Source: Actinomycetes bacterium (lineage in GTDB: Bacteria > Actinomycetota > Acidimicrobiia > Acidimicrobiales > Palsa-688). From it: DNA of 34,565 bases. Position 1 is the first letter of the stretch. Each line of letters begins with the position of its first letter. The notes beneath the pieces were generated by a model. The model saw only the letters and a list, made by a program, of their open reading frames with translations, made no database searches and was not told the origin of the DNA. The position numbers were made by a program, and so were the translations under genes. Shown one piece after another: positions 2,976-33,254 of the stretch. The DNA lies in the NCBI GenBank assembly GCA_021838445.1, contig JAKCDU010000041.1, positions 1 to 34,565 of the forward strand, in the 5' to 3' direction.

Positions 2976-3122
2976 CGTTCGGATCGATCAAGCCTGGCCG
3001 GGCCCACTGCCACGGCGGCCATCGTAAGCCGGCCGGGCCCGGCCGGGTCGATCCGGTGACCGTCGGGCGCCGGCGGGGTAGCGTGGGCACACCCACCTTC
3101 GGTGTCGGGAGCGGAGGGTCCA

Positions 3123-4793
3123 GTGCGAGACGAATCGATTCTCATCCGGGGCGGCACGGTCGTAGACGGGACCGGCCGGGACCGCTTCGAAGCGGATGTG
3201 GCGGTGCGCGGTGGACGCATCGTCGGCCTCGGACCCGACGCCGGGGGCGCCCTCGACGGCCCGGTCCGCACCCTCGACGCGTCGGGCCAGGTGGTGGCCC
3301 CCGGCTTCATCGACATCCACACCCATTACGACGCCCAGGTCTTCTGGGATCCCTGGCTCACCCCCTCGGCCTTCCACGGGGTGACGACGGTGGTAGCCGG
3401 GAACTGCGGTTTCTCCATCGCCCCCACTCGACCCGAGGGCGTGGACCTTCTGGCCCGCACGCTCCAGCACGTCGAGGACATGAGCTTCGACACTCTCGCC
3501 GCGGGCGTCCCGTGGGGCGAGTTCCAGACCTTCCCCCAGTACCTCGACTCCGTGGCGCGGCGGGGCGTGGGACTCAACTACGGCTGCTACGTGGGGCACA
3601 CCGCCGTCCGCCTGTACGTGATGGGGGAGGAGGCCTACCAACGGGAACCGGGCCCCGACGAGTTGCGGGCCATGCAGGAAGTGGTGGCCGACGCCGTCGA
3701 CGCCGGTGCCATCGGGTTCGCCTCTAGTTCCTCACCGACTCACAACGGCGACCGGGGCCGCCCGGTCCCGTCCCGGCTCGCCGGCATCGACGAGCTGCGA
3801 GCCCTCCTCGAACCGCTGCGGGCCCGCCGGCGGGGGGTCGTCGCGTTGCTGCCCGGCGGGGTGATCAAGCACCATGAGATGTTCGACCTCCAGCGTCACG
3901 TCGGTCGGCCCTTCACCTGGACCGCCCTCCTGACGGTGGCCGGTCGTCCCTACCACGAGCGGGTGATCGCCGAGCACGAGGCGGCGTGGGCCGACGGGGT
4001 CGAGGTGTGGCCCCAGGTATCGTGCCGTCCTCTGGTGTTCCAGATGAACCTGGCCGAGCCCTTCACGTTGAACATGCGACCGCCCTTTGCCGCTCTCATG
4101 GGGTTGGCGCGAGAGGAGCGAATCGCCGCCTACCGTGACCCGGTGTGGCGGTCGGGGGCCTGGGCCGACGTCGAGACGAACTTCAACTGGCGGTCATTGT
4201 CGGTGGCCGAGTCCGACCGCCACCCCGAGTTGGTCGGCCGGGCCGTCCTGGACCTGGCCGCGGAGCGGGGTGGGACCGCCCTCGACGTGGTGCTGGACCT
4301 GTCGCTCGAGGACGGACTGACGACGCGCTTCTGGTCGGTGCTGGCCAATGACGACCCCGACGGCATCGCCTGGCTGTTGCCCCGCGACCACGTCCTGCTC
4401 GGCCTCGCCGACTCCGGAGCCCACGTCTCGCAGCTGTGCGACGCATGCTTTGCCACCGACCTACTCGGCAACTGGGTCCGGGGACGGCAGATCATGAGCC
4501 TCGAACGGGCCGTCCACAAGCTGACCGGTGAGCCGGCCGCGGTGTTCGGTTTGGTCGAGCGGGGCACGCTGGCGCCCGGCCAGGCCGCCGACATCTGCGT
4601 GTTCGACCCCTCGACGATCGGTCCCGGACCGCTGCGGCGGGTGCGCGACTTCCCCGCCGGGGGAGAGAGGCTGACCGCCGACTCCCCCGAAGGAATGAGC
4701 CACGTGCTGGTCAACGGTACGCCGATCCGCCTCGACGGCGCTCCCTGCGCCGAGGGGCTGGAGTCGCGTCCCGGCTCGGTCCTGCGGGGCTAG
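3123..4793 (+). CDS. N-acyl-D-amino-acid deacylase (D-aminoacylase-type amidohydrolase)
   Basis: 556 residues from the GTG at 3123, which has GGAGGG four bases upstream; an in-frame GTG at 3102 is an alternative. The N-terminal strand-rich domain (ILIRGGTVVDGTGRD) is followed by the metal site PGFIDIHTHYD (His66, His68) and by VVAGNCGFSIAP, whose Cys95 matches the zinc-ligand cysteine of D-aminoacylases. The late metal/catalytic Asp is in LADSGAHV. The C-terminus (LAPGQAADICVFD) is the usual closing sheet of composite-domain amidohydrolases. These enzymes hydrolyse N-acyl-D-amino acids or related amides in the cytoplasm. Related sequences include dihydroorotase-like and hydantoinase-like proteins, so the exact substrate is uncertain. 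It stands alone between the divergent ligase and map. Confidence 0.85.
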   Translation: MRDESILIRGGTVVDGTGRDRFEADVAVRGGRIVGLGPDAGGALDGPVRTLDASGQVVAPGFIDIHTHYDAQVFWDPWLTPSAFHGVTTVVAGNCGFSIAPTRPEGVDLLARTLQHVEDMSFDTLAAGVPWGEFQTFPQYLDSVARRGVGLNYGCYVGHTAVRLYVMGEEAYQREPGPDELRAMQEVVADAVDAGAIGFASSSSPTHNGDRGRPVPSRLAGIDELRALLEPLRARRRGVVALLPGGVIKHHEMFDLQRHVGRPFTWTALLTVAGRPYHERVIAEHEAAWADGVEVWPQVSCRPLVFQMNLAEPFTLNMRPPFAALMGLAREERIAAYRDPVWRSGAWADVETNFNWRSLSVAESDRHPELVGRAVLDLAAERGGTALDVVLDLSLEDGLTTRFWSVLANDDPDGIAWLLPRDHVLLGLADSGAHVSQLCDACFATDLLGNWVRGRQIMSLERAVHKLTGEPAAVFGLVERGTLAPGQAADICVFDPSTIGPGPLRRVRDFPAGGERLTADSPEGMSHVLVNGTPIRLDGAPCAEGLESRPGSVLRG

Positions 4794-4823
4794 AACCGGG
4801 AGGCTGCGACCGGCGCCCGGTTC
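4793..4823 (+). terminator. Hairpin after the D-aminoacylase gene
   Basis: An 8-bp perfect stem pairs 4793-4800 (GAACCGGG, including the last base of the stop codon) with 4816-4823 (CCCGGTTC), with a 15-base loop. There is no clear T-run after it. It may be a GC-rich factor-assisted terminator that separates the catabolic gene from map. Confidence 0.35.
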
Positions 4824-4900
4824 CGGGGGCCCCAGCCCCATGGGGAGGCATCGGTTCGGGCCGGGCTGCTTCGGACCCGGGGGCACCTAGCATGGGGTGG

Positions 4901-5641
4901 GTGAAGAGGTCGGCGTCGGAGATCGCCAAGATGCGCCGGGCCGGGCGGGTCGTCGCCGAGATGCACGAGGCGACCCGGGCCGCCGCTCGGGAGGGGGCCA
5001 CGACGGCTGACCTCGACCGGGCGGCGCGAGCCGTGCTCGACCGGCGCGGGGCGCGGTCCAACTTCTTGAACTATCACGGCTTCCCGGCGGTCATCTGCGC
5101 CTCACCCAACGATGTGGTCGTGCACGGCATCCCCGGCCCCTACCGGCTGAAAGAGGGCGACATCGTCTCGATCGACTGCGGGGCCATCGTGGAGGGTTAC
5201 CACGGCGATGCCGCCTTCACCATGGGCATTGGGGCGATCGCCCCCGCAGCCCGGCGCCTACTGGAGGTGACCGAGGCCAGCCTGTGGGCCGGCATCGAGC
5301 AGATGCGCGCCGGGAACCGCCTCAACCACATCGGCCGGGCGGTGCAGGAGGTGGCCGAGAAGGCCGGCTTCTCCGTCGTGCGGGAATACACTGGGCACGG
5401 CATAGGAACAGCCATGCACGAGGACCCCAGCGTGCCGAACTACTACCCCGGTCACCCCGGGCCCCTCCTGCAGCCCGGGATGGTCCTGGCCGTGGAGCCC
5501 ATGGTCAATGCCGGGCGATCCGGTACCCGCACCCTCGACGACGGCTGGAGCGTGGTGACCATCGACGGTGGCCTGTCGGCCCACTTCGAGCACACCATCG
5601 CCGTCACCGAGGACGGCCCTGAGGTGCTCACCCGTCTCTGA
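4901..5641 (+). CDS. map: Methionine aminopeptidase type I
   Basis: Removes the initiator methionine from new proteins. I choose the GTG at 4901 (246 residues, beginning KRSASEIAKMRRAG), because bacterial type I enzymes start close to this motif. A TAGCAT that could be a -10 box lies at 4888-4893, overlapping the alternative ATG at 4892. All five metal ligands are visible: Asp92 (SIDCG), Asp103 (HGDAAF), His166 (GHGIGTAMHE), Glu199 (AVEPMVN) and Glu230 (FEHTIAVTE). There is no N-terminal extension with an SH3/zinc-finger motif. In most bacteria map sits between adk and infA; here neither is adjacent, and the next gene is rpmJ 159 bases on. Confidence 0.95.
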   Translation: MKRSASEIAKMRRAGRVVAEMHEATRAAAREGATTADLDRAARAVLDRRGARSNFLNYHGFPAVICASPNDVVVHGIPGPYRLKEGDIVSIDCGAIVEGYHGDAAFTMGIGAIAPAARRLLEVTEASLWAGIEQMRAGNRLNHIGRAVQEVAEKAGFSVVREYTGHGIGTAMHEDPSVPNYYPGHPGPLLQPGMVLAVEPMVNAGRSGTRTLDDGWSVVTIDGGLSAHFEHTIAVTEDGPEVLTRL

Positions 5642-5699
5642 GGCCCCAGACGTCGAGCAGCCCCGGGTCCGGTGCCCCGGGTCGAGATCGAGGGCGCGA

Positions 5700-5729
5700 T
5701 TTACGAATGGGCTCAGATACGTGTAGCAT
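5700..5729 (+). promoter_or_regulatory. Predicted promoter of the rpmJ-rpoA operon
   Basis: TTTACG (5700-5705) and TAGCAT (5724-5729) are separated by 18 bases, as expected for a housekeeping sigma factor. Transcription would begin near 5736, just before the hairpin at 5743-5761 and about 65 bases ahead of rpmJ. The spacing mirrors that of the rplM promoter. Confidence 0.5.
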
Positions 5730-5742
5730 TATCCCCCGGCCT

Positions 5743-5761
5743 GGCGCGCCTTCAGCGCGCC
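5743..5761 (+). promoter_or_regulatory. Leader hairpin of the rpmJ operon
   Basis: Perfect inverted repeat GGCGCGC (5743-5749), loop CTTCA, GCGCGCC (5755-5761). It starts 13 bases after the predicted -10, so it would lie almost at the 5' end of the mRNA. No T-run follows. It could be a 5' stabilising stem, a ribosomal-protein binding site, or a DNA operator; it could also end map transcripts. A comparable hairpin at the same distance is found before rplM. Confidence 0.5.
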
Positions 5762-5800
5762 GCGTGGCGACCCATTGAGGAAGCTCCGAATGGAGACACG

Positions 5801-5914
5801 GTGAAAGTACGTCCAAGCGTAAAAGCGATCTGTGAGCACTGTAAGGTGATACGCCGCCACGGTCGTGTGATGGTGATCTGCACCAACCCCCGGCACAAGC
5901 AGCGGCAGGGCTAG
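5801..5914 (+). CDS. rpmJ: 50S ribosomal protein L36 (bL36)
   Basis: A 37-residue protein starting at the GTG at 5801 ([18 protein letters not shown]). GGAG at 5792-5795 is a well-spaced ribosome-binding site. The zinc ribbon is complete (Cys11, Cys14, Cys27, His32), so this is the zinc-binding form of L36. A longer frame beginning at 5672 is open, but only the last 37 codons resemble the family. It is the first gene of the operon, four bases before rpsM. infA, which normally precedes rpmJ, is not present. Confidence 0.96.
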
Positions 5915-5918
5915 GGAC

Positions 5919-6299
5919 ATGGCGCGAATCGCTGGAGTAGACATCCCCCGAGAGAAGCGTCTCGGTACGTCGCTCACCTATATCTTCGGTATCGGCGACA
6001 CCACCGCCGTCCAGGTTTGCGAGGGCACCGGTATCGACCCGGCCACCCGGGTTCGCGACCTCACCGACGAGGAGGTCACCCGCCTCCGCAACTGGATCGA
6101 CGCCAATCTGAAGGTCGAGGGTGACCTGCGGAGAGACGTCAGCCAGGACATCAAGCGCAAGATGGAGATCGGCTCCTACCAGGGGATCCGACACCGCCGT
6201 GGTCTGCCCGTGCACGGCCAGCGCACCCACACCAACGCTCGTACCCGCAAGGGTCCGAAGAAGACCGTCGCCGGAAAGAAGAAGGTTCGTAAGCACTGA
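5919..6299 (+). CDS. rpsM: 30S ribosomal protein S13 (uS13)
   Basis: 126 residues, beginning [16 protein letters not shown] with the conserved [10 protein letters not shown] helix-hairpin-helix region. It ends in the basic tail that contacts the P-site tRNA ([20 protein letters not shown], then a lysine-rich end). Length and motifs are normal for the family. It sits in the head of the 30S subunit. It is the second gene of the rpmJ-rpsM-rpsK-rpsD-rpoA-rplQ operon, and AGGG just upstream of the ATG serves as ribosome-binding site. Confidence 0.98.
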
Positions 6300-6317
6300 T
6301 GGCTCTCTCGAAGTCCA

Positions 6318-6716
6318 ATGGCTAAGCCCAAACCGGGCGGTCGCCGCCCCCGTCGCCGCGAGCGTAAGAACGTCACCTACGGGGTGGCGCACATCAAGAG
6401 CTCGTTCAACAACACCATCGTTTCGATCAGCGACCCCGAGGGCAACGTGCTCGCTTGGGCCTCGGCCGGCAACGTCGGCTTCAAGGGCTCCCGAAAGTCG
6501 ACTCCTTTCGCCGCTCAGCTCGCCGCTGAGGCGTGCGCCCGCCGGGCCATGGAGCACGGTGTCCGCAAGGTCGAGGTGCTGGTCAAAGGTCCCGGTTCGG
6601 GGCGTGAGACTGCTATCCGCAGCCTGATGAACACCGGCATCGAAGTCGCCGGCATCAAGGACGTGACGCCCATCCCCCACAACGGTTGCCGCCCCAAGAA
6701 GCGGCGACGGGTCTAG
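6318..6716 (+). CDS. rpsK: 30S ribosomal protein S11 (uS11)
   Basis: 132 residues. The core [20 protein letters not shown] and the C-terminal [15 protein letters not shown] are diagnostic. S11 lies on the 30S platform and helps shape the mRNA exit/Shine-Dalgarno helix. It follows rpsM by 18 bases, and its stop overlaps the Shine-Dalgarno of rpsD. The basic N-terminal tail ([16 protein letters not shown]) is typical of the family. Confidence 0.98.
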
Positions 6717-6727
6717 GAGGTCAGGCC

Positions 6728-7354
6728 ATGGCCCGCTACACCGGTCCGGTTTGCCGCTTGTGCCGCCGGGAGAAGATGAAGCTGTTCCTCAAGGGACCCA
6801 AGTGCGATTCGATGAAGTGCCCCATCGAGCGTCGCCCCTACCCGCCCGGTGAGCACGGCCGGGACCGCATGCGCCAAGGGTCGGAGTACCTGACCCAGCT
6901 GCGGGAGAAGCAGAAGGCTCGTCGCATCTATGGCGTCCTCGAGAAGCAGTTCCACAACCTCTACGAGGAAGCCAACCGCCAGCAGGGCATCACCGGCGAG
7001 AACCTGCTGCGCATGCTCGAGTTGCGACTCGACAATGTCGCTTTCCGGGCCGGTTGGGGAGCCAGCCGGGCCCAGGCCCGTCAGTTCGTCCGCCACGGCC
7101 ACGTCCTGGTGAACGGCAAGCGGGTGACGATCCCCTCCTACCGGGTCCGCAAGGGCGACACAGTGGCCCTCAAGGGCAAGTCCCGGGACATGATCGTGAT
7201 CCGCCACAACCTCGACACCCTCGAGCGGCAGGTGCCGCCCTGGCTGGAGACCGCGGCCGAGGGCCACGAGGTCACCGTCCTCGATCAGCCGCTCCGTGAC
7301 CACATCGACGTTCCGGTGCGCGAGTCGCTGATCGTCGAGCTCTACTCCAAGTAG
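6728..7354 (+). CDS. rpsD: 30S ribosomal protein S4 (uS4), zinc-binding form
   Basis: 208 residues from the ATG at 6728, with a perfect AGGAGG (6715-6720) seven bases before it; an upstream in-frame ATG at 6686 lies inside rpsK and is rejected. The N-terminus has four cysteines (Cys9, Cys12, Cys26, Cys31) in the zinc-finger arrangement of C+ S4 proteins. The S4 RNA-binding domain is seen as LRLDNVAFRAGWGASRAQAR and VLVNGKRVTIPSYRVRKGD. S4 starts 16S assembly, and in some bacteria represses its own operon through a leader structure, which makes the hairpin before rpmJ worth noting. Confidence 0.98.
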   Translation: MARYTGPVCRLCRREKMKLFLKGPKCDSMKCPIERRPYPPGEHGRDRMRQGSEYLTQLREKQKARRIYGVLEKQFHNLYEEANRQQGITGENLLRMLELRLDNVAFRAGWGASRAQARQFVRHGHVLVNGKRVTIPSYRVRKGDTVALKGKSRDMIVIRHNLDTLERQVPPWLETAAEGHEVTVLDQPLRDHIDVPVRESLIVELYSK

Positions 7355-7362
7355 GAACCCTC

Positions 7363-8304
7363 ATGCTGATCATTCAAAGACCGACCGTAGAAGCGCTGGG
7401 CGAGGCTTCTGGCAATCGCCAGCGCTTCGCTATCGGCCCCCTCGAGCCCGGCTTCGGCCACACCCTCGGGGTGGCGCTGCGCCGCACCCTCCTGTCGTCC
7501 ATTCCCGGGGCGGCGGTGACGCAGGTTCGCTTCGACGAGGCGCTCCACGAGTTCACGACCCTGCCCGGGGTCAAGGAGGACGTCACCGAGATCATCCTCA
7601 ACCTGAAGGACATCGTGCTGTCGGTCTACTCCGACGAGCCGGTGACCCTCCGCCTCGACGTGCGGGGGCCGGCGACGGTCACCGCCGGTGACATCGTCAC
7701 CACCAGCGACGTCGAGGTCCTCAATCCCGAGCTGGTCCTCGCCACGCTGAGCGGCAAGGGCCGGCTGGCGTGTGACCTCACCGTCGAGCGGGGCCGCGGT
7801 TACGCCTCGGCCGACCGCAACAAGCGCTCGGCCACCATTGGCGTGATCCCTGTCGACTCCATCTTCTCGCCCATCCGGGTCGCCGCATTCAGCGTCGAGC
7901 CCACCCGGGTGGAGCAGTCGACCAACTACGACCGCCTCGTGCTGGACGTCACCACCGACGGGTCCATCACGCCGAGCGACGCCCTGGCGTCGGCCGGTGA
8001 CACGCTGCGATCCCTGGTGGGGTTGGTGGCCGACATGAGCGACAATCCCCAGGGTCTCGAGCTCGGCGATGTCGGCACGGCCATCAGCGGTTCCCCGGAC
8101 CTGGATCTGCCCATCGAGGACCTCGATCTGTCCGAGCGGCCCCGAAACTGCCTGAAGCGGGCCCAGGTCAACACGGTCGGGGAGCTCGTGCTCAAGACCG
8201 AGGACGACCTGCTGGCCATAACCAACTTCGGTCAGAAGTCCCTCGACGAGGTGCTACAGAAGCTCGACGAGCGCGGTTTGTCGCTGCGTAGCAAGGAAGG
8301 TTGA
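7363..8304 (+). CDS. rpoA: DNA-directed RNA polymerase subunit alpha
   Basis: 313 residues, standard for actinomycete alpha subunits. The N-terminal assembly domain is seen in RFAIGPLEPGFGHTLGVALR and RRTLLSSIPGAAVT. The middle part (VTTDGSITPSDALASAGDTL) is typical. After an acidic linker, the C-terminal DNA- and activator-binding domain follows (LSERPRNCLKRAQVNTVGEL, then NFGQKSLDEV with a lysine-rich end). AGGAA lies upstream of the ATG. It is eight bases after rpsD and one base before rplQ. Confidence 0.98.
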   Translation: MLIIQRPTVEALGEASGNRQRFAIGPLEPGFGHTLGVALRRTLLSSIPGAAVTQVRFDEALHEFTTLPGVKEDVTEIILNLKDIVLSVYSDEPVTLRLDVRGPATVTAGDIVTTSDVEVLNPELVLATLSGKGRLACDLTVERGRGYASADRNKRSATIGVIPVDSIFSPIRVAAFSVEPTRVEQSTNYDRLVLDVTTDGSITPSDALASAGDTLRSLVGLVADMSDNPQGLELGDVGTAISGSPDLDLPIEDLDLSERPRNCLKRAQVNTVGELVLKTEDDLLAITNFGQKSLDEVLQKLDERGLSLRSKEG

Positions 8305-21251: not shown

Positions 21252-22787
21252 TTGTCGCTGCGTTTCGGCACCGACGGTGTGCGCGGTGTCGCCGGCTCGG
21301 ACCTGACTCCCGAGCTCGTGGTGGCCCTCGGTCGGGCCGCGGCGCGCGTCGTGGGTGTGGCGGGTCGCCCGTTCGTGGTCGGTCGCGACACCCGCCTGTC
21401 GGGTCCCATGCTGCAGTCTGCTTTCGCCGCCGGGGTGGCGGCGGAGGGTTTCGACGTGGTCGACCTCGGTGTCATCCCGACACCGGGGGTGGCCGACACC
21501 GCACTCGACCTGATGGCCCCGGGGGCGGTGGTCTCGGCTTCGCACAATCCTTTCGCCGATAACGGCATCAAGCTTCTTGCCGCCGGGGGGCGCAAGCTCG
21601 CCGACGAGACGGAAGCGGCGGTGGAGGCCCTGGCCGCCGAGCTGGTGGTGCGGGGGGGCGCCAGCCGACCCGGGGCTTTGCCCCGCAGCGGCGCCGGCCT
21701 CGGGCGGGTGAGCACCGACCGCGGCGCCGTCGCCCGCTACTGCGCCCGCCTCGCCGGGGTGCTCGAGGGCCGGTCCCTGAATGGTCGGAAGGTGGCCGTG
21801 GATTGTGCCAACGGTGCTTCGTCGGTGACAGCCCGGGACGTCCTCGAAAGGGCCGGAGCCCAGGTGGTGGCGGTGCTGAGTGACCAGCCCGACGGTACCA
21901 ACATCAACGACGGTTGCGGGTCGACCGATCCCCGTCGCCTGGCTGCTGCTGTGGTCGCCCACGGAGCCGACGTCGGCCTGGCCTTCGATGGCGACGCCGA
22001 CCGGGTGATCGCCATCGACGAGACGGGTTCAGTGGTCGACGGCGACCGCCTGATCGCCCTGTTCGCCTTGGACATGCACGCCCGGGGGCGACTGGCCGGG
22101 CCGGGGGTGGCGGTCACGGTGATGACCAACCTCGGCTTCCACCGGGCTATGGCCGACGCCGGGGTGGAGGTGGTCACGACGCCCGTCGGTGACCGCAACA
22201 TCGTCGACGCCCTGGAGGTGAGGGACTGGAACATCGGTGGGGAGCAGTCGGGCCACATCGTCTTCCGCCGCCTCCTCTCGGGTGGCGTCGGGCATGGCCT
22301 GGCTCCGACCGGAGACGGAGTCTTGACCGGACTGCTGTTGATCGACCTGCTCGAACGGGCCGGCAGACCCTTCTCGGCTCTGGCCGCCGGCGCCATGCAG
22401 CGTTTTCCGCAGGTGCTCGAGAACGTGCGGGTCGCTGATCACCGGGCCCTCGACTCGGCCGGTGCGGTGTGGGAGGAAGTGCGTCGTGTCGAAGCGGCGC
22501 TCGGGTCTTCGGGCCGGGTGCTGGTGCGACCGAGCGGTACCGAACCGTTGGTCCGGGTCATGGTGGAGGCGTCCACCGAGCAGGCCGCTGCGCAAGCCGT
22601 CCGCTCCCTCTCCTCGGTCGTCGTCGACAGCCTCGGGCCCCCGGCTGCCACCGCCGGCCCGGCTGACTCCGGGCCAGCTGCCGCCCCCGCCGGCCCGGCT
22701 GCCTCCGGGCCAGCCGCCACCCCCGGGGTGCCCCCGACCCCCGGGGCGGCGGGAGCCGTACCGCTAGCCGATCACCGAATCGAGTGA
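21252..22787 (+). CDS. glmM: Phosphoglucosamine mutase, with repetitive C-terminal tail
   Basis: 511 residues; converts glucosamine-6-phosphate to glucosamine-1-phosphate for UDP-GlcNAc. The TTG at 21252 is the only start that fits, because the family motif FGTDGVRGVAG begins at residue 5. The phosphoserine is Ser97 in VVSASHNPFADNG; the metal loop is FDGDADRVIAID, the sugar loop GGEQSGHIV and the phosphate loop RPSGTEPLVRV. The enzyme normally ends near residue 455. Here about 55 further residues rich in Ala, Pro and Gly follow, encoded partly by a 36-base tandem repeat. The last 24 bases overlap the tail of the convergent MFS gene. A small hairpin (21238-21251) abuts the TTG. Confidence 0.96.
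   Translation: MSLRFGTDGVRGVAGSDLTPELVVALGRAAARVVGVAGRPFVVGRDTRLSGPMLQSAFAAGVAAEGFDVVDLGVIPTPGVADTALDLMAPGAVVSASHNPFADNGIKLLAAGGRKLADETEAAVEALAAELVVRGGASRPGALPRSGAGLGRVSTDRGAVARYCARLAGVLEGRSLNGRKVAVDCANGASSVTARDVLERAGAQVVAVLSDQPDGTNINDGCGSTDPRRLAAAVVAHGADVGLAFDGDADRVIAIDETGSVVDGDRLIALFALDMHARGRLAGPGVAVTVMTNLGFHRAMADAGVEVVTTPVGDRNIVDALEVRDWNIGGEQSGHIVFRRLLSGGVGHGLAPTGDGVLTGLLLIDLLERAGRPFSALAAGAMQRFPQVLENVRVADHRALDSAGAVWEEVRRVEAALGSSGRVLVRPSGTEPLVRVMVEASTEQAAAQAVRSLSSVVVDSLGPPAATAGPADSGPAAAPAGPAASGPAATPGVPPTPGAAGAVPLADHRIE
22652..22723 (+). repeat. 36-base tandem repeat (two copies) in the glmM tail
   Basis: Two near-identical 36-base units start at 22652 and 22688 (about three differences). 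They encode AGPADSGPAAAP and AGPAASGPAATP. Each unit contains the inverted repeat GGCCCGG-N6-CCGGGCC, so each could fold in the mRNA and may help end or stabilise transcripts of the two convergent genes. Confidence 0.75.
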
Positions 22788-24311: not shown

Positions 24312-24946
24312 CGGCGTCCGGCTCCGCCCGACAGCGCGGCCATGGGGGTGAGCTCCCCGGCCAACTCCCTGAAGGCCTCTTCGACCAGGCCGTGGAAGGG
24401 CCGCCTTCCCTGCTCGTCGGCCCACTTCTGCTGAGCCACCCGGCACGCCCCGCAGGCGGCCATGACCAGCACGCTCGGTCGCAGGCTGGTGGCCGGGTCG
24501 GTGCCCAGCCGCTCGGCCACCGCGGATACCAGGGCCCGCTCGAGCTCGTCGAAGCTGGCGGCCAGGGCGGCCATCAGGTGGGGCTCGCGGCGTACGAGGG
24601 CCTGCCGGCGCACCGCCTTGTGCGAATCGACCAGCCGGTCTCCCACGTAGCCCTCGAGGACGGCGCGCAGGGCCTGGACCGGGTCCTCGTCGGCGGGGCG
24701 GGTGAGTAGGGCGTCCCGCAGCCTCTCGGCCAGGAACGGGTCCCGGTCGAGCACGGCGTACTCCTTGGATGGGTAGTAGGACCAGAAGGTTCGGGAGGCC
24801 ACCCCGGCCCGGTCGCTGATGGCCTCGATGGTGGTGGCCGAGAAGCCCAGTTGGTCCACCAGCTCGAAGGCCGCCTCGTGGATGGCCTGGCGGGTCGCTC
24901 GCTTCTTGCGCTCCCGGTGGGAGGTGGCTTCGGTGGTCGCGGACAT
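24308..24946 (-). CDS. TetR-family transcriptional regulator
   Basis: 212 residues. The N-terminal helix-turn-helix is clear (RQAIHEAAFELVDQLGFSAT, then TIEAISDRAGVASRTFWSYY and YPSKE). The C-terminal ligand domain is about 140 residues. It most likely represses its own operon with the MFS exporter, and perhaps the divergent flavoprotein gene, responding to the exported compound. A TAGGGT -10-like box lies six bases before the ATG, so the mRNA may be leaderless. A palindrome (24968-24986) sits in the promoter region. Confidence 0.92.
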   Translation of the reverse strand: MSATTEATSHRERKKRATRQAIHEAAFELVDQLGFSATTIEAISDRAGVASRTFWSYYPSKEYAVLDRDPFLAERLRDALLTRPADEDPVQALRAVLEGYVGDRLVDSHKAVRRQALVRREPHLMAALAASFDELERALVSAVAERLGTDPATSLRPSVLVMAACGACRVAQQKWADEQGRRPFHGLVEEAFRELAGELTPMAALSGGAGRR

Positions 24947-24967
24947 TTGGTCACCCTACCCGCAAGA

Positions 24968-24986
24968 TTCTGCATACCGTGCAAAA
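24968..24986. promoter_or_regulatory. Candidate TetR operator
   Basis: TTCTGCA-TACCG-TGCAAAA: seven-base half sites around a five-base centre with one mismatch. It is 22-40 bases upstream of the TetR start and overlaps its likely -35/-10 region. A partial second copy, TTCTGCA, begins at 25002, followed by the palindrome ACCTGC-C-GCAGGT, which would suit control of the divergent gene. Confidence 0.5.
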
Positions 24987-25111
24987 AAGCGGGTTCGGCA
25001 ATTCTGCACCTGCCGCAGGTTCGACCATCCCGCTGGTCAAAACGCCGGCCCGGTCGTGAGTGGGCCGAACTCGGTAGCCTCAGCCCGCAGCCACTATCGA
25101 GGGGGAAACCG

Positions 25112-26659
25112 TTGGCCTCTGAAGCTCAACATTGCGATGTACTCGTGGTCGGTTCGGGAGCAGGAGCTCTCGCCGGGGCACTGCTCGCCGCCACCGCCGG
25201 TCTGGCGACCATCGTGATCGAGAAGACCGACCAGTTCGGCGGTACCACTGCGTACTCCGGGGGAGGTCTGTGGATCCCCCTGTCGGCGCCCAACCAACGA
25301 GCGTCGGTGCCCGACTCGCGGGCCGATGTCGACACCTACCTCGATGCCTGCGTCGGCCAGGAGCACCGGGAGCTGCGCGACGCCTATCTCGACGCCGGAC
25401 CGGGCGTCATCGACGAGCTCGAGCTCAATCCCTGGTTGGAGTTCGAGTGGAGGCCCTTCCCCGACTACTTCTGCGAGGCGCCCGGCGCCCAGACCGACGG
25501 CCGGTCGATCTACGCCCTCAACTTCGACGCGACCGGGCACGAGGAGACCATCGCCGATCTGCGCCAGCCCCTGCCCCCCGAACGGGGCGGGTGGAAGGAG
25601 CCGTTCCCGACCATCATCGGCGGGCGCGCCCTCCTGGCCCGGCTGCTGGTCGCGTTGAGCGAGACCGACGCCGTGCTGCTGAAGGAGACCGAGCTGCAGT
25701 CGCTGATCGTCGAGGACGGCCGCGTCGTGGGGGCGCGCTGTACCGGCGCCGCCGGGGAGTCAACCATCCAGGCCGCCCGGGGCGTGCTGCTGGCCGCCGG
25801 GGGCTTCGAACGCAACGACCAGCGTCGACACCGTGACCAGGCCCCGCTGGGCGCCGACTGGACGCTCGGTGCTCCGGGGGGCATGGGATCGGCTCTCGAG
25901 GCGGCCGAGCAGGCCGGCGCCGACACCGGGCTCCTCGAGGAGTGCTGGTGGGCGCCGGGGCTGATGCTGCCCAACGGTACGGCATCATTCCGCCTGTTCG
26001 AACGGGGCAAGCCCGGTTCCATCATGGTCAACGGGGCCGGCGTCCGCTTCGCCAACGAGACCTGGCCATACGACCGCCTGGGCCGGGCCATGGTGGACGG
26101 CCACGCCAGTGGCGTGTCGCACATACCGTGCTGGTTCGTGGCCGACGCCGACCACGTGGAGCGCTACGGCTTCGCCACGGCCCGACCGGGGCGCGAGGTC
26201 GATCAGGAATGGATCGACAGCGGGGTGGTGGTCCGAGCCGACACGGTGGAGGAACTGGCCGGTCGTATCGGTGTTCCCGCCGACGCCCTGGTCGCCACCG
26301 TCGCCGAGTGGAACGCCGGGGCGGCCGACGGCAAGGATCCGCGCTTCGGTCGCGGCGAGCTGGCCTTCGACCGCTTCTTCGGCGACCCCTCGGTCGAGCC
26401 CAACCCCTGCGTCGGGCCGCTCACCCGCGGCCCGTACTGGGCCTGGCAGGTCAACCCCGCCGATCTGGGCACCAAGGGCGGCGTCCGCTGCGACTCCCAC
26501 GGGCGGGCCCTCCGTCCCGACGGCTCGGTCCTGCCCGGCCTGTATGCGGCCGGCAACACGATGGCGTCGTGGACCAACCACTGCTACCCCGGTCCCGGCT
26601 CTCCGATCGGGTCCGGCGTGGTCTTCGCCGCCCTCGCCGTGAGGGACATGATCGGGTAG
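25112..26659 (+). CDS. FAD-dependent oxidoreductase, 3-ketosteroid dehydrogenase (KstD)-like
   Basis: 515 residues from the TTG at 25112, which has GAGGGGG six bases upstream; the open frame extends further but without family similarity. The N-terminus is a dinucleotide-binding fold (VLVVGSGAGALAGALLAATA) followed by IEKTDQFGGTTAYSGGGLWI, typical of FAD_binding_2 proteins such as 3-ketosteroid dehydrogenases and fumarate-reductase-type flavoproteins. The C-terminus has GLYAAGNTMASWTNHCYPGP and GSPIGSGVVFAAL, the flavin-contacting end. A role in delta-1 or delta-4 dehydrogenation of a steroid-like ketone is plausible, not proven. It is divergent from tetR-MFS, which suggests shared control. 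Confidence 0.85.
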   Translation: MASEAQHCDVLVVGSGAGALAGALLAATAGLATIVIEKTDQFGGTTAYSGGGLWIPLSAPNQRASVPDSRADVDTYLDACVGQEHRELRDAYLDAGPGVIDELELNPWLEFEWRPFPDYFCEAPGAQTDGRSIYALNFDATGHEETIADLRQPLPPERGGWKEPFPTIIGGRALLARLLVALSETDAVLLKETELQSLIVEDGRVVGARCTGAAGESTIQAARGVLLAAGGFERNDQRRHRDQAPLGADWTLGAPGGMGSALEAAEQAGADTGLLEECWWAPGLMLPNGTASFRLFERGKPGSIMVNGAGVRFANETWPYDRLGRAMVDGHASGVSHIPCWFVADADHVERYGFATARPGREVDQEWIDSGVVVRADTVEELAGRIGVPADALVATVAEWNAGAADGKDPRFGRGELAFDRFFGDPSVEPNPCVGPLTRGPYWAWQVNPADLGTKGGVRCDSHGRALRPDGSVLPGLYAAGNTMASWTNHCYPGPGSPIGSGVVFAALAVRDMIG

Positions 26660-26703: not shown

Positions 26704-29700
26704 ATGTGCGGAATCGTCGCGGTCCTGGCCCAGCGCTCCGACCGGGTCCCGCTGGCACCCGAGGCCGTGCTGGAGGACCTGGCCGCGGTGACCGCCCTCC
26801 TGGGCGGCTCCGCCGAGGAGCTGGTGCGCGGCGGGCCCGGACCGCTGCAGCGGGCCACGGTGGAGGCCAGGCGGCTCGAGCGCAGCCTGCGGGGCGCCCC
26901 CGGGTTGCGCACCCTCCTGAGCGAGCCGGCTGGCCTGGAGCGTCTGGAGCAGGCGGCCCGGGCCGCGTGGGACGCGCTCGGGTGCATCGAAGCCACCTTC
27001 GACGGGATGGCGGCGGACATGGATCCGCTGTCTCAGGAAGCCTTCAGCTCGGCCCTGGTCGAGTTGAAGGACGCCCTGTGGGCTCTGTCGCGTGACCGAA
27101 TCCAGGCCGGACGGCGGGTCCGGTCGTTGCTCGGCGGGCGGGATGTCACCGACGGGACCAACCTGGACGGCTGGTGGGCCGTCCAGGTTGCTCTGGCTTC
27201 CCTCGACCGCCTCGAGGTGCGTGGCCGTGACTCCGCCGGGATCCACATCATGGTCTCGGGGCCGGGGATCCCCGCGGACGGGGCGGGCGGGCGCGACGGC
27301 GACCTCCTTTTTCCCGGCGGATCGGTCCGAGCGGCCGACGGCACCATCAACTTCGTCTACAAGGCGGCGGCTGAGATCGGCGAGCTGGGTGACAATGTCC
27401 GGGTCCTTACCGCAGCTATCGCCGGCGACCCCCTGCTGAGCCGACTGATCGAGGACCCCGCGGCGCACGTGACGGTCCTGGGCCACACCCGCTGGGCCAG
27501 CGTGGGCATCATCTCCGAGCCCAACGCCCACCCGGTCAACTCCGAGGAGCTCGGCCGCCGCAGCCCTTATGTGGCGTCGGCGCTCAACGGCGACGTCGAC
27601 AACCACACCGAGTTGCTCGAGCAGGAGTCACTGTCGTTCCCCCCCGAGATCACCACCGACGCCAAGGTGATCCCCGCGCTCATCGGGCGGCGCCTGGCCG
27701 CTGGCGACGAGGTCATCGACGCGTTCGTTTCGGCGGTGCGCCGCTTCGAGGGGTCGGTGGCCATAGCCGCCTCCGCCGCGGTGACCCCCGACCAGCTCCA
27801 CCTGGCCCTGGCCGGCTCCGGCCAGTCGCTCTACATAGGGCTCGCCGAGGACGCCTTCGTGGTCGCCAGCGAACCCTACGGGCTGGTCGAGGAGGCCAGC
27901 TGCTACGTCAGGATGGACGGGGAAGCCAGCCAGGGCGAAGTGGTGGTCCTCGACCGCTCCGGCGCCGGGTCCCTCGCCGGTCTGTCCCGCCGTCGCTACA
28001 GCGGGGCCGACACACCCGTCGCCGACACCGAGGTGGTGACCGCCCAGATCACCACCCGCGACGTCGATCGCCGCGGCTTCGAGCACTTCCTTCTGAAGGA
28101 GATCACCGAGGCCCCCGACTCGTTCCGCAAGACCCTGAGGGGACGCATCCAGTCCGGGGCCGACGGGCGGCTAACCGCCCGCCTCGGCGAGGAGACCATC
28201 CCGCCCGGCCTGGCCGCCGCCGTGGCCGAGGGTCGGGTCCGCCGGATCATCGTGGTAGGGCAGGGCACCGCGGCCGTCGCCGGTCAGGCCACCGCCGCGG
28301 CGTTGCGCCAGTGCCTGAGCGGATTGATGGTGCACGCCATGCCGGCCACCGAGCTGTCCGGGTTCGGCTTGAGCGACGACATGGGCGACACCCTGGTGGT
28401 GGCCATCAGCCAGTCGGGGACCACCACCGACACCAACCGCACCGTCGACCTGGCCCGAACCCGAGGCGCTCACGTCGTGGCCGTGGTCAACCGCCGCAAC
28501 AGCGACCTGGCGACCAAGGCCCACGGGGTCCTCTACACCTCGGACGGCAGGGACGTGGAGATGAGCGTGGCGTCGACCAAGGCATTCTACGCCCAGGTCG
28601 CCGCGGGCTGGCTGCTCGCCGCCGGCCTGGCCGAGGTCGCCCCGCAGCGGCGGGCCCTGTCGGGCGAAGAGATGCACGCCCGTCTCGGGGCCCTGCGGGA
28701 CCTGCCCGCGGCCATGGTCCAGGTCCTCGGCCAGCGGGAGGAGATCGGACGCATCGCCGCGTCGGTGGCCCCGCCCCGGCGCTACTGGGCCGTCGTTGGC
28801 AGCGGGCCCGACCGGGTGGCGGCCTCCGAGATACGGATCAAACTCTCGGAGCTGTGCTACCGATCCATCTCGTCGGATCACACCGAGGACAAGAAGCACA
28901 TCGATCTGTCCTGCGAGCCCCTGGTCCTGGTCTGCGCCAGCGGCCTCCGGGGACCCAACGCCGACGATGTAGCCAAGGAAGTGGCCATCTACCGGGCCCA
29001 CAAGGCGGTGCCCGTGGTGATCGCCACCGAGGGCGAGGAGGAGCGCTTCCGGTCCGTGGCCCGGGAGCTCGTCACCGTCCCCCCGACCGACCCGGCGTTG
29101 GCGTTCGTGCTCGCCGCAATGGTCGGCCACCTCTTCGGCTACGAGGCCGCCCTGTCCATAGACGCCCAGGCCCGCACCCTGAGGGGGGTGCGGGCGGTGC
29201 TCGAGGGAGCCACCGGCGAGGACCCCGACGGGATCCTCCTGCGCCTGCGCCCGGCCCTTTCGGCGGCGGCCGGGCCGTTCCTCGACGGGCTGCGGGCCGG
29301 CAGCTACAACGGCAACCTGGAGGCGTCGACCGCGGTGCGACTCACTTCGCTGCTGCGCTACGCCACCGGGATGCTGCCGCTCGAGGGCTACGAGACCGAG
29401 ACCGGCAAGATCGGCACGCCGGAGGCCCTGATGTCGGACCTCCTCGAAGCCCTGAGCACCGCCATCGACGAGCTCACCCGGCCGATCGACGCCATCAAGC
29501 ACCAGGCCAAGACCGTTACCGTGGGCATATCCCGCAGCGAGGACGCCCTGTTCGGGGTGCCCCTGGTGGCCGCCACGCTCGGCGCCGGAGCCGCGCCCGA
29601 CACCTTGGGCTACCGGGCCCTGCGCACCCTCGCCGCGCTCGACCAGGCCGTGGAGGAGGTGCTCGGCTACACCCGCTACCGGATCGATGCGAGCGTCACC

Positions 29701-30111
29701 GAACCCACCGCCACGGTTCTCGACCAGGGGGGGGTCGCTCTCGGTCTGCGGTCGCGCACCCAGCGCGACCCCCGTCTGCTCGGCAGCAAGCACCGCGCCG
29801 CCGAGGAGCGGGAGGTGACCGTGGTGCGGGGCGCCAGCGACGGTCGCACGGTGATCCTCGTGCCCGAGTCCAAAGGTCTGCAGGTCACCGGCATGACACT
29901 GCTCCATGTCCGCTTCCACGAGCGGTTGCCGGCCGAGACCATGGCCGCCGTGCTCGGTGGCTACCGCACCCGGTTCAACGCCCTCTTCGACGCCGTAACC
30001 GAGACCGAGCCGGTGTTCGACCGGTCCCGTCTCGGCCACGAACCGGTCGCCGACCTCCTCACCGAGCCGGTCTACCAGCTGGCCCGCCGTTGGAGGAGTG
30101 TCACGGAGTGA
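26704..30111 (+). CDS. glmS: Giant GlmS-like glutamine-fructose-6-phosphate aminotransferase
   Basis: 1135 residues against about 610 for usual GlmS. It begins MCGIVAVLAQ, so Cys2 would be the N-terminal nucleophile. The next family motif, VRGRDSAGI (canonical YRGYDSAGI), comes only at about residue 172, giving an insert of about 145 residues (16-160). Then come GHTRWASVG (260-268), NAHPVNS and NGDVDNH (Asn295, Gly296). The sugar-isomerase half has SQSGTTTDTN (from 569) and MSVASTKAFYAQV, then a second SIS domain with KLSEL (Glu716) and EDKKHIDLS (His732) in place of GELKHGPLA. The usual C-terminal end appears as AKTVTVG (Lys936) but is followed by about 199 extra residues. TATAGCCT 9-16 bases upstream of the ATG suggests a leaderless start. 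Position before acpS-nnr-alr supports a GlmS role; a divergent activity is possible. Confidence 0.85.
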   Translation: MCGIVAVLAQRSDRVPLAPEAVLEDLAAVTALLGGSAEELVRGGPGPLQRATVEARRLERSLRGAPGLRTLLSEPAGLERLEQAARAAWDALGCIEATFDGMAADMDPLSQEAFSSALVELKDALWALSRDRIQAGRRVRSLLGGRDVTDGTNLDGWWAVQVALASLDRLEVRGRDSAGIHIMVSGPGIPADGAGGRDGDLLFPGGSVRAADGTINFVYKAAAEIGELGDNVRVLTAAIAGDPLLSRLIEDPAAHVTVLGHTRWASVGIISEPNAHPVNSEELGRRSPYVASALNGDVDNHTELLEQESLSFPPEITTDAKVIPALIGRRLAAGDEVIDAFVSAVRRFEGSVAIAASAAVTPDQLHLALAGSGQSLYIGLAEDAFVVASEPYGLVEEASCYVRMDGEASQGEVVVLDRSGAGSLAGLSRRRYSGADTPVADTEVVTAQITTRDVDRRGFEHFLLKEITEAPDSFRKTLRGRIQSGADGRLTARLGEETIPPGLAAAVAEGRVRRIIVVGQGTAAVAGQATAAALRQCLSGLMVHAMPATELSGFGLSDDMGDTLVVAISQSGTTTDTNRTVDLARTRGAHVVAVVNRRNSDLATKAHGVLYTSDGRDVEMSVASTKAFYAQVAAGWLLAAGLAEVAPQRRALSGEEMHARLGALRDLPAAMVQVLGQREEIGRIAASVAPPRRYWAVVGSGPDRVAASEIRIKLSELCYRSISSDHTEDKKHIDLSCEPLVLVCASGLRGPNADDVAKEVAIYRAHKAVPVVIATEGEEERFRSVARELVTVPPTDPALAFVLAAMVGHLFGYEAALSIDAQARTLRGVRAVLEGATGEDPDGILLRLRPALSAAAGPFLDGLRAGSYNGNLEASTAVRLTSLLRYATGMLPLEGYETETGKIGTPEALMSDLLEALSTAIDELTRPIDAIKHQAKTVTVGISRSEDALFGVPLVAATLGAGAAPDTLGYRALRTLAALDQAVEEVLGYTRYRIDASVTEPTATVLDQGGVALGLRSRTQRDPRLLGSKHRAAEEREVTVVRGASDGRTVILVPESKGLQVTGMTLLHVRFHERLPAETMAAVLGGYRTRFNALFDAVTETEPVFDRSRLGHEPVADLLTEPVYQLARRWRSVTE

Positions 30112-30488
30112 GCGGGCGGCTCATCGGTCTCGGCATCGACGTGGTCGACATACCGAGGTTCCGGGAGGTGATGCGCCGCCGGCCGGCGCTGGCCGAGCGG
30201 CTCTTCTCTCCCGACGAGCTGGCTTACGCCGCCACACTGGCCAACCCCGCTCCCACCCTCGCCGGTCGCTTCGCCGCCAAGGAGGCGGTGATGAAAGCAC
30301 TGGGGGTGGGTCTGGGCGCCGTCGACTGGAAGGACATCTCGGTTCAGCGCCTGGCGGGGGGTGCGCCCGAGTTGGCCGTGCAGGGGCGCGCCGCCGAGCT
30401 GGCCCGCAAGTTCGGGGTGAGCTCGTGGAAGATGTCCATCTCCCACACCGATACCGTCGCCACGGTCACCGTGGTGGCCCTCACATGA
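30108..30488 (+). CDS. acpS: Holo-[acyl-carrier-protein] synthase
   Basis: 126 residues from the GTG at 30108, overlapping the glmS TGA (GTGA). It transfers 4'-phosphopantetheine from CoA to acyl carrier protein. Mg-binding Asp11 is in GLGIDVVDIPRF and Glu59 in GRFAAKEAVMKALG, both conserved; the C-terminal SSWKMSISHTDTVATVTVVA completes the fold. Length is normal. Its TGA overlaps the ATG of nnr. Confidence 0.96.
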   Translation: MSGRLIGLGIDVVDIPRFREVMRRRPALAERLFSPDELAYAATLANPAPTLAGRFAAKEAVMKALGVGLGAVDWKDISVQRLAGGAPELAVQGRAAELARKFGVSSWKMSISHTDTVATVTVVALT

Positions 30489-31912
30489 TCCCCCTCCTCC
30501 TGCCGGCGGAGCTGGCCGAGGTCGACTCGTCGGCGCCCGAGCCGGTCGAGGTGCTGGTGCGAAGGGCCGGTTACGCCGTCGCCGGCGCGGCCCGGAGGCT
30601 CATGGCCGGAACCTACGGGCGGCGGGTCGTGGTCGTCGCTGGCCGGGGTAACAACGGTGCCGACGGACGGGTCGCGGCCGCCGTTCTGGCCCGCTGGGGC
30701 GCCCGGGTGGTGGTCCTCGACGCCGCTGACCTCCCCGGCGGGGCGGCGCTGCTCGGTCCCGACCGGCCCGGCGCCGACCTGATCGTCGATGCCGCCTACG
30801 GCACCGGGCTGAGGCGCCTGTACGAACCCCCCGATCCCGGTTCCACCCCGGTGCTGGCCGTGGACATCCCCTCCGGCCTGTCAGCTACCACCGGTACCGG
30901 CTCGTCGATGACAGCCGCGGCGACGGTCACCTTCGCGGCCTTGAAGCCGGGCCTGGTGCTGAACGACGGGGCCGAGCGCAGCGGACGGTTGGAGCTCGCC
31001 GGGATAGGCCTGGACGGGGCGGCCGCCCGGCGGGCCGCCATGTGGCTGGTCGAGGACGCCGATATGCAACGCCTGCCCCGTCGTGGCCGCCGGGCTCACA
31101 AGTGGCAGAGCGCGGTGGCCGTGGTCGGCGGATCGCACCAGATGAACGGCGCCCCGCTCATGGTGGCCCGGGCCGCGCTGCGGGCCGGGGCCGGTTACGT
31201 CCTCGTGGGGGTGCCGGGCGCCCCCGAGGGGGGTGGGCTCCCCCCTGGCGAGCACGTGGCTGTGGACCTGCCGGAAGGGGACTGGGTGGCGGCGGCCGCG
31301 GCTTCGGCGGGGCGGGCCCGGGCCCTGGCCGTCGGCCCCGGTCTGGGGGCCGCGGCGCGGGGGACCGAAGGGGCTGCCGGCCCCGACACCGCCGTCGGCC
31401 GGCTGCTCCTCGCCACCGACGTGCCGGCGGTCGTGGACGCCGACGGGATCACCGCCCTTGGAAGCATCGACGCCGTTCGGGCCGTCACCTCCCGTCGCAG
31501 CGCGCCCATCGTGCTCACCCCCCACGAAGGTGAGTACGCCAAGCTGACCGGCCATCGCCCGGCTGACGACCGCATCGCCGATGTGAGGGCCACGGCGGTA
31601 CAGACTGGGGCGGTGGTACTGCTCAAAGGCTCGACGACGGTCCTGTCCGATCCGGCGGGAAGGGTCCTGGTGGCCGCCGCGGGACGCCCCAACCTGGCCA
31701 CCGCCGGCAGCGGGGACTCCCTGACGGGCATCATCGCCGCCTTCCTGGCCCGGGGGGTCGAACCCCTAGAGGCGGCGGCCCTGGCCGCCCACGCCCATGG
31801 CCGGGCGGCTGGCCTGGGCCGACCGGAGGGGCTCGTAGCCTCCGACCTGCCCGAACTGGTGGCCGACTACCTGTCGGCAGTGGCGGGTACCCAGACGGCG
31901 GCCTCGAGTTGA
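30485..31912 (+). CDS. nnr: Bifunctional NAD(P)HX epimerase / ADP-dependent dehydratase
   Basis: 475 residues, a two-domain repair enzyme for hydrated NAD(P)H. Residues 1-200 are the YjeF_N epimerase (VVVVAGRGNNGADGRVAAAV, then AYGTGL and VDIPSGLSATTG). The rest is the ribokinase-like dehydratase, with VGGSHQMNGAP, ALAVGPGLG, PIVLTPHEGEYAKLTG, VLLKGSTTVLSDP and the catalytic NLATAGSGDSLTGIIAA. Both halves look complete, although the epimerase half is on the short side. The ATG overlaps the acpS stop, so glmS-acpS-nnr are coupled. Confidence 0.95.
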   Translation: MIPLLLPAELAEVDSSAPEPVEVLVRRAGYAVAGAARRLMAGTYGRRVVVVAGRGNNGADGRVAAAVLARWGARVVVLDAADLPGGAALLGPDRPGADLIVDAAYGTGLRRLYEPPDPGSTPVLAVDIPSGLSATTGTGSSMTAAATVTFAALKPGLVLNDGAERSGRLELAGIGLDGAAARRAAMWLVEDADMQRLPRRGRRAHKWQSAVAVVGGSHQMNGAPLMVARAALRAGAGYVLVGVPGAPEGGGLPPGEHVAVDLPEGDWVAAAAASAGRARALAVGPGLGAAARGTEGAAGPDTAVGRLLLATDVPAVVDADGITALGSIDAVRAVTSRRSAPIVLTPHEGEYAKLTGHRPADDRIADVRATAVQTGAVVLLKGSTTVLSDPAGRVLVAAAGRPNLATAGSGDSLTGIIAAFLARGVEPLEAAALAAHAHGRAAGLGRPEGLVASDLPELVADYLSAVAGTQTAASS

Positions 31913-32003
31913 CCGCGCCGCCGGCGACTTGGCCCTCGGGTCGGTCCGTCGATCGGCCCACCGGGTCGGAGCCGCGGGCCGCATGCGCCCGGAGATGAGC
32001 GCC

Positions 32004-33254
32004 ATGTCGGACCGGTACGGGCCCTCCGGCGGGCACCCGGCGGGGCGCGCCGCTGACAGCTATCGGGCCCGCCCCGCCTGGGCCGAGATCGACCTCGGTG
32101 CCGTCACCCACAACGCCGCGGTGCTGGCGGCGCGGGCCGCCCCCGCCCGCTTGTGCGCGGTGGTCAAAGCCGGAGGTTACGGCCACGGGTCGGTACAGGT
32201 CGCCCGGGCCGCTCTGGCCGGTGGGGCGACCTGGCTGGCCGTGGCGCTGGTCGAAGAGGGACGGGAACTGCGCGCCGCGGGGATCGCCGCCCCCATCCTG
32301 GTCCTTTCGGAGCCACCGACCGACGCCATGGTCGAAGTGGTCGAGGCCGGCCTAACCCCGACGGTGTACACCCCCGCCGGCCTGGCCGCCCTGCGCCGGG
32401 CCGTCGCTGAGCACCTGCGACGCCGGCCCTCACCGGCTCTCGCCCGGTGGCCCTCACCGGTCCATGTCAAAGTAGACACGGGCATGCACCGCGTCGGCGC
32501 CTCACCGCTCGACGCGCTGGGCCTGGCGGCCGAGGTGGCTTCGGACCCGGACCTGGAGCTGGAGGGGTTCTGGACCCACCTGGCGGTCTCCGACGAGGTC
32601 GACCACCCGTTCAACGCGGTCCAGTTCGAGCGCTTCGAGCGCGCCCTTTCGGACCTGGCCGGTCGCGGCGTGCGCCCGGCCATCCGTCACGCGTCCAACT
32701 CGGGGGGCACGCTCTGGCTTCCCCAGGGCCGCTACGAGATGGTCCGCTGTGGCATCACCCTCTACGGCCTGTCCCCGTCGGGGGCGAGGCCCGAACCCGC
32801 TGACCTGCGCCCGGCGATGTCGCTCAAGGCCCGGGTGTCGTACGCCAAGACAGTGGCGGCCGGTGAACGCCTCTCCTACGGTCTGCGCTACCGCGTGGCC
32901 GAGGACTCGGTGGTGGCGACGGTCCCACTCGGTTACGCCGACGGTATCCCCCGACGCCTATCGGCGGCCGGCGGGGAGGTTCTCATCGGGGGCCGCCGAT
33001 GTGCCCTGGCCGGGACCGTGACCATGGACCAGATCCTGGTCGATTGCGGCCCCGGAGCCGACGTCAGGAGCGGCGACGAAGTGGTGCTCATCGGGCGGCA
33101 GGGCTCACAGACCATCGGCGCCTGGGAGTGGGCCGAGCGGACCGACACCATCGCCTACGAGGTGGTCTGCGGTATCAGCGGGCGGGTGCCGCGGGTGTAC
33201 ATCGACGGTTCGTGGCCCCCCTCCGCGGGTCCGGTCGGTCGCGCTCGGCCGTGA
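32004..33254 (+). CDS. alr: Alanine racemase
   Basis: 416 residues from the ATG at 32004 (GGAG nine bases upstream). In-frame ATGs at 31983 and 31995 and a TTG at 31929 are possible but have poorer sites. It makes D-alanine for peptidoglycan. PLP is bound by Lys55 in AVVKAGGYGHG; the usual motif is VKADAYGHG, so the conserved Asp is Gly here. Other landmarks are KVDTGMHRVG, HASNSGG, RCGITLYG, the second catalytic Tyr region RLSYGLRYR, VPLGYADGIPR and TMDQILVD. The N-terminal 20 or so residues are an extra polar tail. It follows nnr closely and precedes the peptidase by 13 bases. Confidence 0.93.
   Translation: MSDRYGPSGGHPAGRAADSYRARPAWAEIDLGAVTHNAAVLAARAAPARLCAVVKAGGYGHGSVQVARAALAGGATWLAVALVEEGRELRAAGIAAPILVLSEPPTDAMVEVVEAGLTPTVYTPAGLAALRRAVAEHLRRRPSPALARWPSPVHVKVDTGMHRVGASPLDALGLAAEVASDPDLELEGFWTHLAVSDEVDHPFNAVQFERFERALSDLAGRGVRPAIRHASNSGGTLWLPQGRYEMVRCGITLYGLSPSGARPEPADLRPAMSLKARVSYAKTVAAGERLSYGLRYRVAEDSVVATVPLGYADGIPRRLSAAGGEVLIGGRRCALAGTVTMDQILVDCGPGADVRSGDEVVLIGRQGSQTIGAWEWAERTDTIAYEVVCGISGRVPRVYIDGSWPPSAGPVGRARP

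Follow-up and report, generated by a model that had tools for sequence, protein, structure and literature searches.

The open reading frame at 26704..30111 of the window, by which is meant the whole stretch of 34,565 nucleotides that was analysed, raises the question of whether a GlmS-like protein of 1135 residues is the glucosamine-6-phosphate synthase of the cell that carries it, and of what its added residues might do. The frame and its parts are as follows.

26704..30111, + strand: long GlmS (P0001), 1135 aa, a single uninterrupted frame with start MCGI
26704..26748, + strand: residues 1-15, with nucleophile Cys2 and the first glutaminase-domain strand; Cys2 invariant in 123 long proteins
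26749..27153, + strand: residues 16-150, all-helical N-terminal insert; helices at 19-142 in the AlphaFold2 (AF2) model; least conserved part
27154..28068, + strand: residues 151-455, remaining glutaminase domain with RGRDSAG, HTRWAS, NGDVDNH and TDAK
28069..28683, + strand: residues 456-660, first SIS domain with GQGTA, SQSGTT and VASTKAF; Pfam SIS match of 1.8e-19 at 513-639
28684..29163, + strand: residues 661-820, second SIS domain with E709, K713, E716 and EDKKHIDLS (H732)
29164..29463, + strand: residues 821-920, helical segment ahead of the C-tail, about 105 additional residues, from spacing and AF2 helices
29464..29538, + strand: residues 921-945, canonical C-tail motif ELTRPIDAIKHQAKTVTVGISR with Lys936, an internal linker
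29539..30108, + strand: residues 946-1135, additional alpha/beta domain at the C-terminus, with a PAS-like five-strand fold predicted by AF2

The long GlmS has 526 residues more than E. coli GlmS. Between the equivalents of Cys1 and Arg26 there are 146 extra residues, with RGRDSAG at 173-179, at the position of E. coli Arg26, in agreement with the earlier note, made from this sequence, that the motif is displaced from Cys2 and the first strand. The same note had described EDKKHIDLS in place of the usual GELKHGPLA, which is found at 728-736, and some 199 residues beyond Lys936 of AKTVTVG, which is the length in this protein, with 193-220 in 123 full-length homologues. Beyond what was described there, about 43 residues are added between Arg26 and Arg73 (RGRDSAG to HTRWAS) as a longer loop at about 180-250, 24 between Asp123 and Thr302, and about 105 between His504 and Lys603, that is, from the EDKKH histidine to Lys936.

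The genome of the window is a draft in 117 contigs, where an assembly fusion or a gene-calling artefact could join GlmS to its neighbours. The same architecture is repeated in the 123 full-length homologues from other genomes, including the single-contig genomes G033 and G037, which rules out such an artefact and leaves it a negligible probability. In one genome (G042, locus L027, at about 5334-7685 plus an overlapping downstream frame) the long GlmS is split in its second SIS domain, close to residue 737, either through a sequencing error or as a real split. AlphaFold2 run on 25 homologues gives a whole-length model with pLDDT 84 and pTM 0.74.

Against the NCBIfam model TIGR01135 (glmS) the long GlmS scores 226 bits, below the cut-off of 418, and against PRK00331 it scores 244 bits, below the cut-off of 381. 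As the TIGR01135 cut-off is a similarity threshold derived from ordinary GlmS, and not a mechanistic one, the long GlmS is referred to here as a divergent variant rather than as a standard member. Pfam recognises one SIS and one GATase_6 domain, the second SIS being shown by fold and alignment. The AF2 model superposes on both E. coli GlmS, an overlay proposed in the earlier note, and human GFAT-1, at a Z of about 40 across some 600 residues.

The catalytic set of GlmS comprises Cys1, Glu488, His504 and Lys603 (PMC9272926). By alignment, E709, K713, E716 and H732 of the second SIS domain are E. coli E481, K485, E488 and H504. The equivalents of C1, R73, W74, H86, N98, G99 and D123 in the glutaminase domain, and of S347, Q348, S349, T352, S401, E481, K485, E488, H504, A602 and K603 in the isomerase domain, are invariant across the 123 long proteins, and that of T302 is kept in 122 of them. 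Judged from these residues, the catalytic apparatus for both half-reactions is complete.

There are nevertheless substitutions in all or nearly all of the long forms: T76S, H77V/I/M, S303A, E351T/S, R472N/S, N600H and L601Q. The changes T76S, H77V, S303A, E351T and R472S/N leave room for a shift in kinetics or in sugar specificity. The invariant changes near the sugar and glutamine sites (S303A, E351T, R472S/N, H77V), together with the scores below the curated GlmS cut-offs, would fit a GlmS-like synthase with a new function, the amination of another sugar phosphate, in which case glucosamine-6-phosphate (GlcN6P) would be supplied otherwise. Against this, all three isomerase catalytic residues and most of the phosphate-loop residues are unchanged in the long forms, and S303A is no hallmark of them, since Ala is present in 13 of 39 ordinary GlmS too. 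The distribution and the location of the gene, described below, also tell against a change of substrate, which is considered improbable.

In its own genome, which is 96% complete, the long GlmS is the sole GlmS-type candidate; a second, standard glmS, which the earlier note had named, together with loss of activity in the long protein, as evidence against this identity, was searched for in that genome and none was found. Two other matches there were rejected. The 518-aa frame at G000:C18:70075 has glutaminase-type similarity only and is probably PurF, and a match on G000:C108 is of another SIS type.

The long form has 50-96% identity to the long forms of its relatives and 28-34% to the ordinary GlmS of sister families, which in turn have about 40-44% identity to E. 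coli GlmS. Among 148 genomes of the order of the window with completeness of at least 90%, in which doubtful long forms were confirmed by a long-form profile, 98 have the long form, 49 have ordinary GlmS above cut-off, and one has neither. The matches were listed down to about 155 bits, below which a genome with ordinary GlmS might still carry a divergent long copy. The two forms thus alternate, with nearly always one or the other present, which is not what would be expected if the long form aminated another sugar. One of the 98 (G158) also has a frame-broken ordinary copy.

In G158 the intact long GlmS is inside the glmM cluster, and the broken ordinary copy, which extends over two frames (L233, G158:C29:9855-11538), is outside it. 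The isomerase half of this copy has 64% identity to the ordinary GlmS of G035, which likewise has no glmM or acpS neighbours. The order genome in which neither form was found (G066) is 1.8 Mb and 98% complete, and possibly represents a dependent organism or a gap.

In the class sample, searched with the long-form profile, 53 genomes have the long form, the match is in a frame of ordinary size in 64, and no genome has both. Long GlmS would seem to stand in for ordinary GlmS in most sequenced Acidimicrobiia, a group of bacteria from soil and water. Named records with long GlmS are from this class, for example Aquihabitans, Ilumatobacter, Candidatus Microthrix and IMCC26207. The C-terminal segment also occurs beyond the class, in four further families of the phylum, although some of these contigs are possibly contaminants; G311, with 5% contamination, has both GlmS forms. 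That the length might be common and already characterised in this lineage had been raised as an objection: it is indeed common, and in the open-licence literature, with most subscription journals outside the scope of the search, no paper describing GlmS in Acidimicrobiia was found. Long GlmS is real and widespread, and as a variant of a known enzyme it is apparently undescribed.

The genes around glmS in the window are as follows.

21264..22787, + strand: glmM, phosphoglucosamine mutase, the next enzyme of the pathway; TIGR01455 464 bits, above cut-off
24851-26659, + strand: 3-ketosteroid-dehydrogenase-like FAD enzyme
30120..30488, + strand: acpS, holo-ACP synthase; start codon inferred
30485..31912, + strand: nnr, NAD(P)H-hydrate epimerase/dehydratase
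31968..33254, + strand: alr, alanine racemase; TIGR00492 331 bits, above cut-off; coordinates of the frame searched

The order glmM-glmS-acpS-nnr-alr is found in most loci with enough flank, whether the glmS is long or ordinary, with other genes separating glmM from glmS in the window. The position before acpS-nnr-alr had been taken earlier to favour a GlmS function, and this is strengthened by the presence of glmM upstream and by the fact that the slot is common to both forms; that long GlmS has kept a slot near glmM also argues against its use on another sugar. The FAD enzyme is immediately 5' of glmS, between it and glmM, in the window and in several close relatives, and in most other families glmM adjoins glmS.

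A tree of the neighbouring glmM genes requires at least nine changes of glmS type, of which well-supported branches force at least two, the tree as a whole being weakly supported. One clean change from one form to the other was considered and finds no support in this tree, given the nine changes that it needs, although only two are forced by well-supported branches. These changes would suggest that the form of glmS has probably been swapped in place more than once.

The GlmU proteins of the family of the window are about 356-371 aa and end just before the acetyltransferase part of the left-handed beta helix. Such short GlmU are at G000:C20:1547-2659, - strand (L275), in the genome of the window itself, and in G001 (L284), G014 (L286) and G005 (L289); in the first of these genomes prs is within about 100 bp after GlmU. 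Given that the acetyltransferase part is absent, N-acetylation must come from another enzyme or take place in another order.

The alternative proposed in the earlier note, a move to another amino sugar, is disfavoured because GlcN6P would then have no recognised source, although glmM and the GlmU nucleotidyltransferase remain. The suggestion made beside it, that this is the hexosamine synthase of the cell, is upheld: as the sole candidate, in the GlmS slot, alternating with the ordinary form and with invariant catalytic residues, long GlmS is almost certainly the glucosamine-6-phosphate synthase of these bacteria.

The most conserved part of the protein is the tail motif at 921-945, with a mean identity of 0.94; residues 933-947 have pLDDT below 50 in the whole-length model. 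In long GlmS the AKTVTVG sequence with Lys936 is internal, whereas the ordinary AKSVTVE is a free, mobile C-terminus that contributes residues to both active sites. Of the mobile elements that connect the two domains of GFAT/GlmS the C-tail is the main one, and in E. coli GlmS it is restricted by a salt bridge between Arg331 and Glu608 (PMC8041777). Of the 39 ordinary GlmS compared, 38 have Arg331 and all 39 have the final Glu. In the long forms Arg331 is mostly absent and the chain goes on through an invariant Gly941 in place of the terminal Glu. The loss of both residues and the continuation of the chain mean that the tail is now a linker and that its old anchor is gone.

In one genome (G103:C38, L271) the GlmS at 2904-6017 ends at KTVTVGISRR and has no C-terminal domain; nnr starts about 20 bp past it, and acpS is absent between the two. 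The other members of this family have kept the domain, with frame lengths of 1172-1243 among the matches listed. This form is seen in a single genome, another member of the genus having neither GlmS form. The stop directly after the tail indicates that the C-terminal domain can disappear with the tail still in place, and suggests that this domain is an accessory module which catalysis can do without, whereas the tail is needed.

The C-terminal domain itself (946-1135) has a mean identity of 0.67, with G988, R991, Y992, D1046, R1048, E1055 and H1068, several of them polar, invariant or nearly so. The AF2 model of 819-1135 has pLDDT 91 and contains five strands in an order similar to the PAS topology. 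The nearest solved fold is 7jsr 170-361 of the mycobacterial large glutamate dehydrogenase (large GDH; Foldseek E 3.6e-4, probability 1.00), with a superposition of Z 9.3 over 164 residues at an rmsd of 4.8, and we infer that this is the PAS domain of that enzyme. Next in order, at Z 7-9 and so near the aligner background, come helical bundles and GAF, PAS and CACHE sensors. On its fold alone the C-terminal domain is predicted to be PAS-like.

Common descent with the large-GDH PAS domain, the best PDB fold match, is not claimed, since hhalign against 29 windows along large GDH gave a probability of at most 5%, which is not significant; the highest-scoring of these windows overlap the PAS region, and place VLGYTRY opposite FLGYRSY. 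The insert and the extension were also searched separately, as had been proposed, and both have chance-level Pfam matches only. The C-terminal segment has no significant match among PDB sequences. There is no stand-alone copy of the domain in the genome of the window or in 246 genomes of the phylum, where the matches are frames of about 1140 aa or shorter ones consistent with truncated genes.

Purely structural additions to GlmS, which would give a different oligomer or stabilise the fold with no metabolite control, are the less likely case, at perhaps one chance in three or slightly better. The N-terminal insert is all-helical, with AF2 pLDDT mostly 83-95, and has a mean identity of 0.51, the lowest in the protein, compared to which the helical segment at 821-920 has 0.60. 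An all-helical, poorly conserved insert is expected of a surface packing element, and the nearest structural relative of the C-terminal domain is in the N-terminal segment of the mycobacterial large GDH, which makes subunit contacts (PMC8175468). However, the C-terminal domain is joined directly to the catalytic tail, and the conservation of its seven residues would appear to exceed the needs of packing.

The explanation that is preferred as a whole, and is thought probable, is of a lineage-specific long GlmS that is the enzyme of the cell and in which the added domain controls the tail. Cys2 would hydrolyse glutamine, the ammonia would pass the Trp264 gate, and Glu716, His732 and Lys936 would turn fructose-6-phosphate into glucosamine-6-phosphate. 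The added domain would be a regulatory or assembly accessory governing closure of the tail on the sugar and the coupling of the active sites, and the enzyme might be tunable by a bound metabolite or by a change of oligomer. That the C-terminal domain acts on the tail in this way, either as a metabolite sensor or by determining the oligomer, is given a little under an even chance, and UDP-GlcNAc, the example named in the earlier note, is a possible candidate for the metabolite. More tentatively, and rather doubtfully, the C-tail may be a lever worked by a PAS-like domain that senses a ligand; binding would pull on the tail or let it go, and it is this tail that closes the sugar site and completes the channel for ammonia.

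The long form shares with GlmS/GFAT (1JXA, 6SVM, TIGR01135) an Ntn glutaminase and two SIS domains, the catalytic residues, the fold and the neighbourhood. It differs in its 526 extra residues, in the internal C-tail followed by a new domain, in being without the Arg331-Glu608 tail lock, and in its identity of about 30%. In eukaryotic GFAT-1 the additions are placed elsewhere than in long GlmS. GFAT-1, which is under UDP-GlcNAc feedback (PMC8041777, PMC7000685), is similarly an enlarged GlmS, and its regulation acts through the coupling of its two domains, but its C-tail is a free terminus (PMC8041777) where that of long GlmS is internal. The mycobacterial large GDH (7JSR, PMC8175468) is also a large glutamate-linked enzyme with added domains, and provides the predicted-fold match. 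It has, however, another catalytic core, carries the domain at the other end of its chain and shows no significant profile similarity.

GlmS supplies the first precursor of the cell-wall sugars in a committed and normally essential step of cell-wall synthesis, and is an antibiotic target. With long GlmS scoring below the curated thresholds, glmS could be reported as missing from these genomes by automated pathway calls. The account is strongest in the displacement pattern and in the catalytic tail as linker, and weakest in what the new domain does. Related genomes with ordinary, long and tail-terminated GlmS, the last without the C-terminal domain, in the same slot offer a natural comparison for the coupling of the active sites by the C-tail. 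If the reading of the tail as a lever of ligand sensing is true, these bacteria would have built-in control of the supply of cell-wall precursors, in an enzyme that would have taken over from ordinary GlmS in most of a class of bacteria.
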